NCBI GenBank assembly: GCA_033762255.1
Contig: JANRLT010000065.1
Span: 186,001-250,000 of the forward strand
Direction: 5' to 3'
From: Pirellulales bacterium
GTDB lineage: Bacteria > Planctomycetota > Planctomycetia > Pirellulales > JALHPA01
DNA: 64,000 nt
The stretch's first letter is position 1; every line of letters begins with the position of its first letter. The notes under the pieces were generated by a model. That model saw only the letters and a list, made by a program, of their open reading frames with translations, was not told where the DNA came from and did not search any database. Below are positions 42,852 through 48,162 of this stretch, piece by piece. A program made the translations under genes and the position numbers.

Positions 42852-43011
42852 TGTTGCCTCCATGGTGGGCGGAAATTCTCGAGAGGCGCCGTTTAATAAC
42901 GGCACGACTTTTCTGGATTATGAACCCGCCAAAAGACCGTCGCAAGCAAATTCTTACCAACTTGTGACAATCGTGCCGGTCAGGCCCATGAAAGATTGGG
43001 CAAATAGAAAC

Positions 43012-43057
43012 AGGGTCCGGTGGGAGTCGAACCCACGATAGCGGATTTGCAATCCGC
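43012..43057. repeat. Left attachment core (displaced tRNA-Cys 3' half)
   Basis: Identical to 48012-48057. Read on the minus strand it starts at the 5' strand of the anticodon stem (GCGGA), covers the GCA anticodon and T arm, and ends with the discriminator. It lacks the 5' half of the tRNA, so it is not a tRNA gene. Confidence 0.95.
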
Positions 43058-43303
43058 AATCACCCCCCTGCGGAATTTTCGCCAAGCATTGAAGCCGTAA
43101 CGGCTTACGCAAATTCCGCCAAGACCACGGCAAACGGAGCGCACCAAAATGCGCACCATTTTGAGGGTCAAAACGACGTTACCCCGGCGGTTGATCCATC
43201 CGAAGTTGGGGAACTGGCGGCACTCTGGCCCCTGCTGCCCGAGCGATTGCGAAACACCATCCTGGGCATGATCCGCAATCACCTGGAGGAAACCAAGCGA
43301 TGA
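43058..43303 (+). pseudogene. Detached C-terminal tail of the integrase (int-C)
   Basis: The integrase frame of the right end, carried into the left end through the identical core, is open here for 81 codons to TGA at 43301-43303. The encoded tail starts NHPPAEFSPSIEAVTAY and ends with an amphipathic helix, ELAALWPLLPERL, then NTILGMIRNHLEETKR. It has no start codon of its own apart from a late internal ATG. The stop overlaps the ATG of the next gene by ATGA. In the integrated state this piece is cut from the integrase; in a circle it would be joined to it. The joining is inference from the reading frames. Confidence 0.75.
43138..43160 (+). promoter_or_regulatory. Probable integrase arm site, left
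   Basis: A 23-bp sequence found identically at 47881-47903, built from two GCGCACC words five bases apart. It lies 80 bp inside the left core. Paired direct copies flanking the core in the same orientation are typical of arm-type integrase binding sites. Confidence 0.7.
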
Positions 43304-43524
43304 CCGATGACGCCCTGACGAAGTTGCTGGCCGACCTGGAGGCCGAACAGCCCGCCCTTGAAGCGCAACTGGTCAAGTTGGCTGCGGATGACGAAGCCCG
43401 GCTAACGGAGTTGCTGGCCGCCCTGGACGCCGACAATGCCTGGCTGGAGGCCCTACAGGCCCAAGTTGCCGCCGATGATGCCCGGATAACGGGAATCCCC
43501 CCGGAACGCCTGGAATCGATTTAG
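43300..43524 (+). CDS. Small acidic coiled protein of the element
   Basis: 74 residues (MTDDALTKLLADLEAEQPAL and on). Strongly acidic and helical, with a repeated Leu/Ala heptad pattern and two AADD motifs, so probably a coiled coil. The ATG overlaps the TGA of the integrase tail (ATGA), which suggests translational coupling when the element is circular. No known family. Confidence 0.65.
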   Translation: MTDDALTKLLADLEAEQPALEAQLVKLAADDEARLTELLAALDADNAWLEALQAQVAADDARITGIPPERLESI

Positions 43525-43525
43525 A

Positions 43526-43648
43526 ATGCGATCCACGGGGTTTGACCTGGCATTCGATCCGAACGGCGGGCGCAATTCCTGGTCGATCCTGGAGAATGAC
43601 CATACCGGGCAGGCCCCCCCTTTGGGTCCTTCCCCGGGGGGGTGGTAG
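43526..43648 (+). CDS. Possible 40-residue protein
   Basis: An ATG one base after the previous stop opens a 40-codon frame (MRSTGFDLAFDPNGGRNSWS, then ILENDHTGQAPP). Its closeness to the upstream gene supports it; there is no clear ribosome binding site and no family. Confidence 0.35.
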   Translation: MRSTGFDLAFDPNGGRNSWSILENDHTGQAPPLGPSPGGW

Positions 43649-43810
43649 GGGCGCGGGTCAGACAATAGCGCATTTTGGGCGCTTTTGCAGGGAAAATGCG
43701 GGGGTGGTATTATTGTTATTCGGATTTTCAATTGCCAGCGATCGCGCGATCCGACTGGCTTACATTCCAAAATCATCGAACATCGGGTTTGCGGAGTAGC
43801 TACCGCACAC

Positions 43811-43854
43811 GGTTAGCCGAATGGGAATAGTCGCTTGTTCCCATTCGGTTGACC
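43811..43854. promoter_or_regulatory. Strong 17-bp hairpin ahead of the next element gene
   Basis: Arms GGTTAGCCGAATGGGAA and TTCCCATTCGGTTGACC pair over 17 positions with only two G-T pairs, 10-nt loop. The inner 11 bp are perfect. It ends 18 bases before ATG 43873. It could be an operator, an attenuator or a replication structure. Confidence 0.7.
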
Positions 43855-43872
43855 GGCCCGACCCAAGCGACC

Positions 43873-44514
43873 ATGACCAACGCCGGCGAAATTGTCTGGG
43901 AACAATTCTTTCAAATCGCGGATAATTTCTGTAAGGATTATGAATGGCTGGTCAACCAGTCCCGCGCTGGCAAAGAAATAGAATACTTGGAATTTGTAGA
44001 CTTCTTTGCCGTGTTGAAAGAGCAACTAGAGTTAATTCATCCAAACAGGCAACGAATAGCGACACTAGCTTACCCAAAGCCGACCCTGAATCGGCTGAAA
44101 CTCTTGGTAAATGGGCTGGATATAATCGTTGAGCATTGGCCCAAGGGAAAGCGGATGACGGTGGCGGATTGCCACGTCTATATCGCCGAAATTGAACCGG
44201 CAATGCAGGGATTTTGGAAGCATTTGCAAGAGTTAAAGGGGTTGCATCCCCCTCAGCAAAAAGCGGAATCGACCGCGGTCCCCGACAAGCCCAAGGGAGA
44301 CGGGAACGGGGCGGGGGAGAAAATTGAAGCCGATTCTTATTTGACTCATATCGACATTGCCAAGCGTTACAAGAAAGACCCCGAAGCGACCCGCAAAACC
44401 TTAGATCGTTGGCGAATGAGAAATGACGACGGGTGGCGGGAAGTTACTGAGCGTAAACAACGCGAACCCAAATATTTGTACCAATTATCGGCTATCAAAT
44501 CGCTCTTTGAGTAG
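43873..44514 (+). CDS. Element protein with HTH-like C-terminus, unknown
   Basis: 213 residues from ATG 43873 (MTNAGEIVWEQFFQIADNF); the frame opens earlier, at a TTG inside the hairpin. The N-terminal 120 residues are helical. A charged Lys/Gly linker (DKPKGDGNGAGEK) leads to a C-terminal segment, LTHIDIAKRYKKDPEATRKT, then LDRWRMRNDDGW, that looks like a helix-turn-helix. DNA binding is inferred. Its place behind a strong hairpin suggests autoregulation. No family recognised. Confidence 0.65.
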   Translation: MTNAGEIVWEQFFQIADNFCKDYEWLVNQSRAGKEIEYLEFVDFFAVLKEQLELIHPNRQRIATLAYPKPTLNRLKLLVNGLDIIVEHWPKGKRMTVADCHVYIAEIEPAMQGFWKHLQELKGLHPPQQKAESTAVPDKPKGDGNGAGEKIEADSYLTHIDIAKRYKKDPEATRKTLDRWRMRNDDGWREVTERKQREPKYLYQLSAIKSLFE

Positions 44515-44588
44515 TCCAGCGAATTGTCCGTCTAACCTCCGCCAAAATATTTTAATTCTGAAATTATTGCGCAATTTCCAGCTATTTC

Positions 44589-44610
44589 TAGCCGGACGCG
44601 CGTCCGGCTA
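44589..44610. promoter_or_regulatory. Perfect 22-bp palindrome
   Basis: Arm TAGCCGGACGC, self-complementary with no loop (dyad at GC-GC). It lies in the 300-base spacer between two element genes, 204 bases before the excisionase-like gene, and could be an operator. Confidence 0.65.
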
Positions 44611-44813
44611 ACGTCCTTTTGCAGCACGAAAAATGTGTTGCGTGGGATTCTTTGGCATGGCCAAAACCCTCGATTCTTTGTCTGCCCGCACACTTTCAAA
44701 AATGCTTCGCGCTACGGTACGCGCAGCGGGCAACGACTCAATAAGCGCGATGCTGATTCGTCGCGCTCTGACGACGAAAAGACGGCAACGCCGAAAATAA
44801 AGGAGTCAATAAA

Positions 44814-45119
44814 ATGACCACGACCCATGATCGACCGGCGGTGGATGATCGGCTGCTGGCTGCCCCGGCGTACACGACCCGCGACCTGGCCCGGCTGGCC
44901 AGAGTGACGCCCCGCACTCTGCATGCCTGGCGTGCGCGGCATGGGCTGCCGTATCTGACGCTGCCCGGGGGAGCGATCCGTTACCCCGTCGCGGCGGTCG
45001 ATGCCTGGCTGGCCGCGCGCGGGCGCAATCTCACGCCATACGCCCGTGACCTGGCCCGCGCCACGTCCCCGACCATCCCCACGCTCGCCACACTGGCCGA
45101 GCCACGCCGCGCGGGATGA
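44814..45119 (+). CDS. Excisionase-like helix-turn-helix protein
   Basis: 101 residues with a strong ribosome site (AAAGGAG). A MerR/excisionase-type winged HTH lies at residues 18-72: AYTTRDLARLARVTPRTLHA, then WRARHGLPYL, RYPVAAVDAWLAARGR. Proteins of this type bend DNA at attachment sites and favour excision, or act as small regulators. It is four bases into the next gene (ATGA overlap), so it starts an operon of three overlapping genes. It is far richer in GC than the host. Confidence 0.8.
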   Translation: MTTTHDRPAVDDRLLAAPAYTTRDLARLARVTPRTLHAWRARHGLPYLTLPGGAIRYPVAAVDAWLAARGRNLTPYARDLARATSPTIPTLATLAEPRRAG

Positions 45120-45691
45120 CCCCGCGCAGCGCGACCGTGACCCATATCCATCCATCCGCGCGGCGGTGGCTACTACCCCGACCGCCGCGCCAAACCGAGA
45201 CTCCATCCATGATCCATGATACCCCATACCTGCCTGGGTGGCATGCGGCGACTACGCCGCCGACGCCCCTGCCACCCGCGACCATGCCACCCCCGCCGCC
45301 GCCACCCCTGCCCCCCAGTGGGGAGAGACGCCGCGACGCCGCGCACCGCCTGCTGGAGGCGCGGCGCTCCGTCTACATCCTGCGCGGCCGCCGCGCCCTG
45401 CTGACGGCGCTGCTGGCGGGGGCGGAGACCGTGACCGCCGATGACGTGCGCGCGGCGGTGGAGCTACCCCACGGGATCGATCCCCGCTGTCTGGGTGCGG
45501 TCCCTACCCCGCTGGCCGATGCCGGGATCATCCGCGCGGACGGGTATGCCACCTCCCGCCGGGCAGAGGCCCACGCCCGACCCATGCGACTATGGCGGCT
45601 GGTCGATGCCGACGCCGCGCGGCGGTGGCTGGCCGCGCACCCCGACCGCCCCGACCCCGACTGTGGCGCTGCCACCGGGGGTGGCCCGTGA
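45116..45691 (+). CDS. Proline-rich protein of the element, unknown
   Basis: 191 residues, overlapping both neighbours by four bases or fewer. The N-terminal half has a proline tract (ATMPPPPPPPLPPSGERRRD). The C-terminal half (AHRLLEARRSVYILRGRRAL, GIIRADGYATSRRAEAHARP) resembles a winged-helix protein used to regulate phage replication genes, an inference from its shape. It has a compositional bias (GC-rich, many Arg and Ala). Tight coupling to the DUF1376 gene suggests a joint role in replication. Confidence 0.6.
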   Translation: MTPRSATVTHIHPSARRWLLPRPPRQTETPSMIHDTPYLPGWHAATTPPTPLPPATMPPPPPPPLPPSGERRRDAAHRLLEARRSVYILRGRRALLTALLAGAETVTADDVRAAVELPHGIDPRCLGAVPTPLADAGIIRADGYATSRRAEAHARPMRLWRLVDADAARRWLAAHPDRPDPDCGAATGGGP

Positions 45692-46554
45692 CCAAGCCCC
45701 CCGCATATCTGCTGTACGCTTCGGATTTTTTGGGTGGAACAGCGCTGATGACCAACGACGAAGTCGGAATCTATATCCGGCTGCTGTGCCACGCCTGGAA
45801 CCTTGGTCCCCTACCGGCTGACAGAGCCGCGCAATTAGTCGGCTGCCCCATTCCCCCGGCGGTCCGGGCTAAGTTTGTGGAGTGTGACGGCATGCTTACC
45901 AATGAGCGGCTGGAAAAAGTCCGCGCCAAACAGGCGGAGTACAGCGCCCTTCAAAGCCGAAAAAGCAAGCTGGCGGTCAAAGCCCGCCAACAAAATCGGA
46001 ACCCGGCGGTTGACCCCGGGGATAACCCGGGGGTTGATCCGGGGAATAACCCGGGGGTTGATCCGGCGGTTGACCCCGACGCAACCATTCAGACTCAGAT
46101 TCAGAATCAGACTCTGTCTCTGTATTCATATTCTGGTCAGATTCAGAAGCCGCGGCGGAAATCTGATTCTGAACTGACCTTAGAAATTCAAATTCGGAAC
46201 CTGAGCGGCTACGCCTTTGAGCTAGCGCGTAAGATTCGCCCTACCGACAGCAACGGGGTGAAACTCTGGGCAAGGATCGGCGCGGCGGTAGATGCTGGCG
46301 GAATCTCGGAGCATGCTATGCAAGATTCAATTGCCGCTGCCCTGGCTGGCATGCGCCAGAATCGACCCGGCTATTTCCGGCGCTGCCTGGACAACAAATT
46401 GAGGGAGACTACCGGCCAGACACTGGCGCAGTGCCTGGCCGGGATCGACCCAAGTTCATTATTGGGAGCAACTCAACTTGCGCCGGATGCCGAGTTGCTG
46501 GCTGCCCGCCAAAAAGTAGTGAAAACGCTATTACGCGAAAACCTCACGGGATGA
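45688..46554 (+). CDS. DUF1376-type replication protein
   Basis: 288 residues from a GTG that overlaps the previous stop (GTGA). The N-terminal domain matches DUF1376: PPAYLLYASDFLGGTALMTN, DEVGIYIRLLCHAWN, LPADRAAQLVGCP. This family occurs in phages and islands next to replication genes, with an expected DNA-binding or replisome-organising role. A repetitive linker (NPAVDPGDNPGVDPGNNPG, about residues 105-130) is encoded by 24-bp tandem repeats. The C-terminal domain (about 160-288) is helical and probably contacts a partner such as helicase or primase, by analogy with lambda O. No Walker motif. Confidence 0.8.
   Translation: MTKPPAYLLYASDFLGGTALMTNDEVGIYIRLLCHAWNLGPLPADRAAQLVGCPIPPAVRAKFVECDGMLTNERLEKVRAKQAEYSALQSRKSKLAVKARQQNRNPAVDPGDNPGVDPGNNPGVDPAVDPDATIQTQIQNQTLSLYSYSGQIQKPRRKSDSELTLEIQIRNLSGYAFELARKIRPTDSNGVKLWARIGAAVDAGGISEHAMQDSIAAALAGMRQNRPGYFRRCLDNKLRETTGQTLAQCLAGIDPSSLLGATQLAPDAELLAARQKVVKTLLRENLTG
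46000..46080 (+). repeat. 24-bp tandem repeats, iteron-like
   Basis: Units start at 46000, 46024 and 46048 with the phrase AACCCGGGGGTTGATCC (C/G variants), and a partial fourth copy follows. They lie inside the DUF1376 gene and are followed by an AT-richer, TCAGA-rich stretch at about 46085-46150. This resembles the order iterons then AT-rich region of lambda-type origins. Confidence 0.6.
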
Positions 46555-46719
46555 CCCCTACCGCGAAAAATCCACGGGGATCCCATACACCCCGGAATTC
46601 GCGCTTGTGTCCCCGGTTTGCCCGTTGTAAATACAAGACGCGGGACAGCTAGCGCAACGAGCGACCGACCACGTCCCCGCCAACTCACAAGCGACCTTTT
46701 TTTCAAGGGAGTTGCACGC

Positions 46720-48162
46720 ATGGCAAGTTTAGTACGCCTGGCCAAGGGGAAGAATCCCCCGCTGGCCGTCAAGTTCACCGACCCCCACGACAAACAGCGT
46801 GAACTGCGAATTCACCTGGGCAAAGCCGGGATCGAACTGGGGGAAAAGTTTTGCCGCTGGATTGAAATTCTGGCCGTCTACCGCGCCTTAAACCAAACCA
46901 TGAGCGCCGAAGCGGCGGAGTGGCTGGCCGGATTGTCGGATAAGTTCCATGACCGCATTGCCGCCAAAGGGCTGTGTGAATACCGGCGAACTCCCCAGCA
47001 CAAATTGGCCCCGACGCTGGCCGAGTGGCTGGAGCGGCATATCGAGCAACGCCAAGCGGAACTGAAGCCGCGAAGCCTAGACCGGTTGCAAGATTCGATA
47101 ACGCGCTTGACCGCCTACTTTGGCAAGGAAATTCGGATCGACGCTCTCAATGCCGACGCCGCAAAAAGTTGGCGGGCTTGGTTGCTCCAGCAAAAAGTAG
47201 GGCGGAGCAAGCACAACGCCGCGACGTTGTCAGAGGCGACCGTGCGGACGCATTGCCGCAACGCCAAGAGCATCTTTGCCGACGCGGTGGAACGAGACCT
47301 GATTGCCAAAAACCCCTTTGCCATCCTGAAAAGCGCTTCGGTGGCGGCGGAGCGTACCACGTATGTGACACCCCTGCAGGCTGACGCGATCCTCCAGCAA
47401 TGCCCCACGACCCAATGGAAACTTGTCTTTGCGCTGGCGCGGTGGGCGGGACTACGTTGCCCCAGTGAAACTCATAGCATCACCTGGCAGAACGTGAATT
47501 GGGAAAAATCCCTGCTGACGGTGGCCGCCCCCAAGACCGGCAAAACGCGGATCGTGCCCATTCGGCCAGAATTGCTAGCGTTGTTGCAAATTGCGTTTGA
47601 CGCAGCGCCAGAGGGGGCTACCGCGATTGTGACCTTGCCCCACTGGGGGATTCACCGGAACCTGGAGAAATTTATTTTGGCGGCTGGGATTGCCCCTTGG
47701 GATGACCTACTGCAAACTCTGCGCCGAAGTTGTGAAACCGAGTGGGCGGAGACCTGCCCCCAACATGCGGTCAGTGCCTGGATCGGGCATAGTGTCGCGG
47801 TCAGTATGAGGCACTACACGATGACCACAACGGAGACCCTTGACCGGGTCCGGCAACCGGGTCCCGACGCCGCAAAAAAAAGCGCACCAAAATGCGCACC
47901 ATTAAGCCCCGGAAACGACCGGAAACCGCCGGAATCAGAAATTATTTACTTAACAACCGCGACCCCCCCGAAACTCACAAATAGTGCGGAAAATGCGGGG
48001 TTTTTAAGCATAGGGTCCGGTGGGAGTCGAACCCACGATAGCGGATTTGCAATCCGCGGCCTTAGCCACTTGGCGACGGACCCATTGAATCAGGCGGGAT
48101 GGGATGAGCGAGGGGGTCAAATCAATGAAACCCCGGATTCCGCCCCCAACCCTTCACCGTAA
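46720..48162 (+). CDS. Tyrosine integrase; frame runs through the attachment core and tRNA-Cys
   Basis: 480 residues from ATG 46720 (AGGGAG precedes it). The N-terminal SAM-like core-binding domain spans about 95-200 and the catalytic domain about 215-375. Catalytic residues visible: R246 (ARWAGLRCPSE), R335 (LLQTLRRSCETEWAE; the usual His of HxxR is Gln/Leu here), H357 (WIGHS) and Y366 (MRHYTMTT). After residue 380 a linker runs into GSGGSRTHDSGFAIR, which is the antisense translation of tRNA-Cys. From residue 447 on, the 34-residue end (GLSHLATDPLNQ and on) is encoded by the tRNA 5' half and host DNA, so this tail was acquired on integration. Confidence 0.92.
   Translation: MASLVRLAKGKNPPLAVKFTDPHDKQRELRIHLGKAGIELGEKFCRWIEILAVYRALNQTMSAEAAEWLAGLSDKFHDRIAAKGLCEYRRTPQHKLAPTLAEWLERHIEQRQAELKPRSLDRLQDSITRLTAYFGKEIRIDALNADAAKSWRAWLLQQKVGRSKHNAATLSEATVRTHCRNAKSIFADAVERDLIAKNPFAILKSASVAAERTTYVTPLQADAILQQCPTTQWKLVFALARWAGLRCPSETHSITWQNVNWEKSLLTVAAPKTGKTRIVPIRPELLALLQIAFDAAPEGATAIVTLPHWGIHRNLEKFILAAGIAPWDDLLQTLRRSCETEWAETCPQHAVSAWIGHSVAVSMRHYTMTTTETLDRVRQPGPDAAKKSAPKCAPLSPGNDRKPPESEIIYLTTATPPKLTNSAENAGFLSIGSGGSRTHDSGFAIRGLSHLATDPLNQAGWDERGGQINETPDSAPNPSP
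47881..47903 (+). promoter_or_regulatory. Probable integrase arm site, right
   Basis: Exact copy of 43138-43160, same orientation, 108 bp before the right core, inside the integrase gene (it encodes APKCAP). Confidence 0.7.
47909..47938 (+). repeat. Three 10-bp direct repeats next to the arm site
   Basis: CCGGAAACGA, CCGGAAACCG and CCGGAATCAG stand end to end, one helical turn apart. This phasing fits cooperative binding of a small protein such as an excisionase. No copy is visible at the left end. Confidence 0.55.
48012..48057. repeat. Right attachment core
   Basis: 46 bp identical to 43012-43057 and part of the intact tRNA-Cys gene. The identity ends after 48057, where the left copy reads AATCACC and this one GGCCTTA. 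Confidence 0.95.
48012..48083 (-). tRNA. tRNA-Cys (GCA)
   Basis: 72 nt, full cloverleaf. Acceptor GGGTCCG/CGGACCC, D stem GCC/GGC, anticodon stem GCGGA/TCCGC with loop TTGCAAA, T arm GTGGG-TTCGACT-CCCAC, discriminator T as usual for cysteine tRNAs. The 3' 46 nt now come from the element. It is read antisense by the integrase frame. Confidence 0.96.

Follow-up and report, generated by a model that had tools for sequence, protein, structure and literature searches.

Within the window, by which we mean the whole 64,000-nucleotide stretch of planctomycete DNA that was analysed, lies an element of 5.0 kb (5,000 bp) that has a core at each end and a tRNA-Cys gene as its host site. The left core (43012-43057, plus strand) is a displaced 3' fragment of tRNA-Cys. 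The right core (48012-48057, plus strand) lies inside the integrase frame and coincides with the 3' part of the target gene, a minus-strand tRNA-Cys(gca) that is intact (48012-48083). The two cores are identical at 46 of 46 bp and identity ends precisely at both limits on either side, so that the identical 46-bp cores named in a preliminary description of this DNA hold to the base. The position of the right core, in the 3' part of the intact tRNA-Cys gene, makes the 5,000-bp element a conventional tDNA insertion; with a whole tRNA gene at one end, a displaced fragment at the other and an integrase between them, it falls under the Islander definition, which sets the criteria for tDNA-targeted genomic islands (PMC4383910). 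ARAGORN additionally reports a second tRNA-Cys(gca) of 68 nt at 43011-43078, composed of the displaced left core and 21 bases of element DNA; this call is probably a pseudo-tRNA.

The tyrosine integrase gene (46720..48162, plus strand; called from the ORF and Pfam) starts with the ATG at 46720 and, in its integrated form, encodes 480 amino acids up to a stop at 48160-48162. Its product carries the Pfam domains Phage_int_SAM_5 (5.5e-11, 43.2 bits against a cut-off of 22.3) and Phage_integrase (PF00589; 6.1e-10, 39.6 bits against a cut-off of 27.1), and these two domains, together with the catalytic Arg, Lys, Arg and Tyr, place it among the tyrosine recombinases. R246, K272, R335 and Y366 are invariant in 12 homologues; the first His of the HxxR motif is replaced by Gln in the window integrase (Q332). 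The core begins at codon 431 and all of the catalytic residues precede it, the invariant Y366 sitting 65 codons ahead, and the catalytic domain stays whole, as had been claimed. When the ends of the element were joined in silico, the circle form of the integrase came to 527 amino acids with a stop at 43301-43303. Codons 1-446 (to 48057) are common to both forms, and the last 34 codons of the integrated form, peculiar to it, are made of tRNA-antisense and host DNA; the preliminary description had all of these figures right (480 and 527 residues, 446 shared, a host-derived end of 34). As judged from the joined frame, integration exchanges the conserved integrase tail for a tRNA-antisense stub.

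The circle-only tail, recognised from the joined ORF and from relatives, consists of 81 codons plus a stop (43058..43303, plus strand) and ends in a conserved two-helix hairpin (43196..43297, plus strand; AlphaFold2 and profile match), the motif of which, D..LA.VV.AWP.LP...RA.ILAMV with its invariant Trp, is common to the tails of most relatives. AlphaFold2 models the window tail as a helical hairpin (mean pLDDT 85.3), in keeping with the earlier remark that the tail ends in a helix. Full-length L116, an integrase from a viral contig that we modelled as a stand-in for the joined window protein, is predicted to have an ordered integrase body, a disordered stretch (404-486) that derives from attP-region DNA, and a hairpin (484-519) predicted with confidence. 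Neither sequence nor fold searches of Pfam, PHROGs, NCBIfam and the PDB gave a credible match to the hairpin. In the window neither of the other two forward frames is open across the tail region; the tail frame holds no ATG, GTG or TTG upstream of the helices, and its sole ATG lies within the second helix. Both the run of 81 codons past the left core to the stop at 43301-43303 and the lack of a start codon before the helices had been proposed beforehand and were confirmed.

Two further observations concern the DNA that follows the tail. The tail stop and the start of the next gene overlap as ATGA in the window; that integration might break a translational coupling to that gene was considered and, as a general feature, rejected, as this overlap occurs in 7 of 134 tails compared with 7% of control stops. 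The adjoining ORF of 74 amino acids contains a 77-nt repeat (43315-43478, 70% alike).

A 101-aa HTH_17 protein (44814..45119, plus strand; HTH_17 1.4e-10) is a candidate excisionase or directionality factor; HTH_17 proteins are encoded both in the window and in the related element L132, and these proteins could serve as helpers of the integrated integrase. The cargo gene at 45592..46554 (plus strand, start uncertain) encodes a DUF1376-domain protein (9.8e-07, slightly below the curated cut-off) and contains a 12-nt repeat array at 46000-46083. Many related elements are only 5-8 kb long, and two of them (L131 and L132) carry replication genes (AAA_25; DnaB N-terminal domain), where the window element has the DUF1376 protein instead. 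These 5-8-kb elements are possibly satellites or plasmid-like.

To ask how widely this anatomy recurs, we had to choose loci without reference to the tail, because the window tail alone, queried against 147 relatives, matched only itself, being too short and too diverged. For the unbiased loci we therefore took the DNA surrounding integrase homologues, both in this genome and in other Pirellulales genomes, with similarity of the integrase as the sole criterion. Complete ORFs were present at 41 loci, and at 36 of these the integrase ORF enters a tRNA or tmRNA gene at its 3' end, in antisense orientation. In 10 unbiased elements the fetched DNA also contained a left core of 17 bp or more, and in every one of them the joined frame stays open for 40-96 codons; their tail ends comprise seven clear hairpins, one weak hairpin and two that differ (L065 and L081). 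The latter two share the same anatomy and have other tails rich in helix-forming residues (ELRQRLTAEQTQQLAALL; ALRNALREILG), and there may be several tail types. The joined anatomy is no different in elements selected by their tails, which lie at tRNA-Val, Glu, Met, Ile and Ser genes and at tmRNA. Such an element (L177) is also carried by a cultured member of the Pirellulales, Lacipirellula limnantheis I41, though the exact match between its two cores covers only 14 bp.

A scan of genome contigs with the integrase as query gave no match, whereas a tail profile succeeded: it matches 134 of 297 Pirellulales genomes, and a tail sub-profile found 104 loci in 84,980 species genomes, nearly all of them labelled Planctomycetota among the 80 matches listed. 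The hairpin tail is also present in further Planctomycetota classes. Five hairpin matches (L188, L197, L233, L241 and L243) come from contigs labelled Deltaproteobacteria, Zipacnadia, Latescibacterota, Actinomycetes and Chloroflexi and may reflect either a wider spread or misbinned contigs. Two elements (L180:9745-9908 and L037:9789-9937) have at their left ends a stretch of 149-165 bp that resembles the 3' end of the integrase gene immediately ahead of the core (81-87% identity), as though part of an earlier, related element had stayed behind next to the left core. Among named phages and plasmids we found distant integrases only, and our search of the open-access literature found no description of this arrangement in planctomycetes.

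If attP lies inside the integrase gene, the gene should be unsplit in circles and split in chromosomes, and this is the contrast that we observed. Integrase and hairpin share one ORF in the IMG/VR contigs L116, L117/L118, L126 and L127. Three of these (L116, L118 and L126) are circular molecules, since the start of the contig is repeated at its end (terminal repeats of 119 bp, 44 bp and 80 bp, respectively). The unbroken ORF crosses a tRNA-type core in L116 and L127; the L116 core is of tRNA-Glu type (CCCCAAGGGGAGTCGAAC), identical to the core of the genomic element L070, and the ORF continues past it into the hairpin. Of 90 genomic tails from the genome scan, by comparison, none shares an ORF with an integrase. 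The preliminary description had looked to unintegrated homologues to decide whether the tail belongs to the integrase, and in the circular ones (L116, L118 and L126) the tail does follow in frame. In viral contig L125 (24-1225) the order of integrase, tRNA-type core and hairpin is kept, but the hairpin is in a different frame from the integrase, which may be due to an indel, a sequencing error or a programmed frameshift. Genomic ORFs with long frames around the hairpin (L145-L150) were considered and rejected, as they have no integrase inside. The same arrangement and a common motif at different tRNA genes, together with the unbroken integrase-tail ORFs in circular contigs, argue that an in-frame core followed by an open tail is more than chance.

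The tail itself is under selection at the protein level. Over 465 tail pairs at 70-97% nucleotide identity, which are not mutually independent, pN/pS was 0.40 in the tail frame, whereas the shifted frames gave 1.27 and 2.04. In 88 of 137 tails the same ORF includes an upstream tRNA T-loop motif; among random windows the figure is 7%. These data bear on the proposal that the frame past the core is open merely by chance or composition and that the tail is functionless. Long ORFs do arise by chance in G+C-rich DNA, and in its integrated form the integrase does passively enter tRNA-antisense sequence; yet a hairpin common across the phylum, a low pN/pS in the tail frame only, and unbroken ORFs in circular contigs largely refute passive read-through, which we regard as extremely improbable.

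Another proposal is that, once the element is integrated, the tail at its left end gives rise to a small protein of its own. An in-frame ATG, GTG or TTG does lie between core and hairpin in 43 of the 88 tails with the core motif, but ATG occurs there in only 18 of the 88, the window has no start of any kind ahead of its hairpin, and in circular contigs the tail and the integrase form one ORF. We therefore consider a separate protein very unlikely.

The DNA around the core has a structure of its own. Direct repeats of approximately 20 bp, each with a pair of half-sites at a 12-bp spacing (GCGGCGCAgaatGCGGCGCA type; in the window, GCGCACC), flank the core, and with a tolerance of at most 4 mismatches in 20 such arm-like repeats are found on either side of it in 22 of 24 elements. 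The window copies, which the preliminary description does not mention, are 23 bp long and direct, and stand on both sides of the core in the same joined frame: the first (47881..47903, plus strand) precedes the core within the integrase frame, and the second (43138..43160, plus strand) follows it in another codon phase. The spacing between copies is most often 184 or 196 bp. Because the two copies differ in codon phase in 18 of the 22 elements, the repeat is conserved as DNA, consistent with putative arm-type integrase sites. With both repeats and the core inside the frame, the ORF therefore spans arm, core, arm and hairpin.

We propose that a complete attP, comprising arm-like repeat, core and arm-like repeat, lies inside the 3' part of the element's own integrase gene. 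The free circle would encode a long integrase made up of the catalytic enzyme, a disordered linker encoded by attP, and the C-terminal two-helix hairpin. When the circle recombines with the tRNA gene's 3' end, the hairpin codons would be detached and come to lie at the opposite end of the element, in the window without a start codon, and a short stub encoded by tRNA-antisense and host DNA would take their place. This anatomy, with attP inside the integrase gene and a tail swapped at integration, we hold to be nearly certain. The hairpin would be a regulatory or partner-binding module that is active only in the free circle, such that the form of the integrase would report the state of its DNA; most likely, the long form would drive integration, and the short form would be quieter or would depend on a helper, for instance the HTH_17 protein, for excision. 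We infer that the swap controls the direction or the activity of the integrase, and find this functional part slightly more plausible than its negation. The swap may also, as the preliminary description suggested, change the stability of the integrase and favour the integrated state. To the explanation as a whole, an element with attP in its integrase gene and an integrase form tied to the state of the DNA, we assign a probability of roughly 0.75. Whether it extends to a phylum-wide, integration-dependent isoform switch, in which the hairpin licenses integration and is removed by that very reaction as a one-way control, we judge to be evenly balanced.

The hairpin may instead serve the circle in some other way, such as replication, maintenance or recruitment of a host factor, its loss being a by-product of a compact, exchangeable cassette of integrase and attP. 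The related small elements do carry replication genes (AAA_25 and the DnaB N-terminal domain), a compact-module argument has been proposed for the archaeal suicidal integrases (PMC8371274), and a hairpin joined by a predicted disordered linker could act independently. The hairpin, however, continues the integrase frame in successive elements and is not a free gene, and the window copy has no start of its own. We consider this alternative unlikely, though deserving of more weight than either read-through or a separate tail protein.

Very few elements are on record with an att site inside the gene of their own integrase (PMC4701971). In planctomycetes this design appears to be the norm in a large family of elements and is accompanied by a conserved domain that is absent from Pfam, PHROGs, NCBIfam and the PDB as searched. 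Many integrases would accordingly be annotated in planctomycete chromosomes without their native C-terminus, ending in tRNA-antisense peptides, and attP in these elements can be located by reading frame. The tail swap may tell the integrase whether its DNA is free or inserted, and such sensing can be tested directly by setting the two naturally occurring forms of the enzyme side by side.

Several known systems resemble this one in part. In the integration-dependent immunity of mycobacteriophage BPs, the affected gene is the repressor and not the integrase. The likeness is that an att site lies inside a gene and that integration alters that gene's product (PMC4557955). The streptococcal ICEs in rumA have attR within the integrase gene, and the integrase of the excised ICE has a different length and C-terminus (PMC4701971); they differ in having serine integrases and in targeting rumA rather than a tRNA gene. 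The archaeal SSV-type suicidal integrases (SSV, pTN3, pT26-2) likewise have att in the integrase gene and are partitioned at tRNA genes, but integration divides that gene into Int(N) and Int(C), an intact copy would be required for excision, and self-disrupting recombinases are described as exclusively archaeal (PMC8371274). The planctomycete integrase, unlike these, keeps all of its catalytic residues on one side and swaps only its C-terminal tail; the enzyme is not interrupted into Int(N) and Int(C), and it does not belong to the SSV type.

The closest precedent for attP in int, one that the preliminary description did not name alongside the SSV-type integrases and mycobacteriophage repressors, is Myxococcus phage Mx8, which also has a tyrosine integrase, an attP within the coding sequence, and a catalytic part that stays whole. 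Its 112-residue C-terminal tail is replaced by 13 residues upon integration, according to PMC4701971 and PMC6070905, where the integrated form is given as less active (PMC4701971) or altered in specificity (PMC6070905). By analogy, this precedent supports an altered activity of the integrated form in the planctomycete elements, which share with Mx8 the core in the integrase frame and an excised form with a different, longer C-terminus. Similarity between the Mx8 and window integrases is marginal (E 0.009 over 71 aa). No hairpin was found in the Mx8 tail, the best profile match being non-significant and in the enzyme body, nor were flanking repeats of at least 11 bp found in the 3' part of Mx8 int. 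Because the Mx8 tail is unmatched and its integrase only marginally similar, the two have a like way of working and are not one family: Mx8 is a single phage lineage, whereas the planctomycete design is a phylum-wide class.
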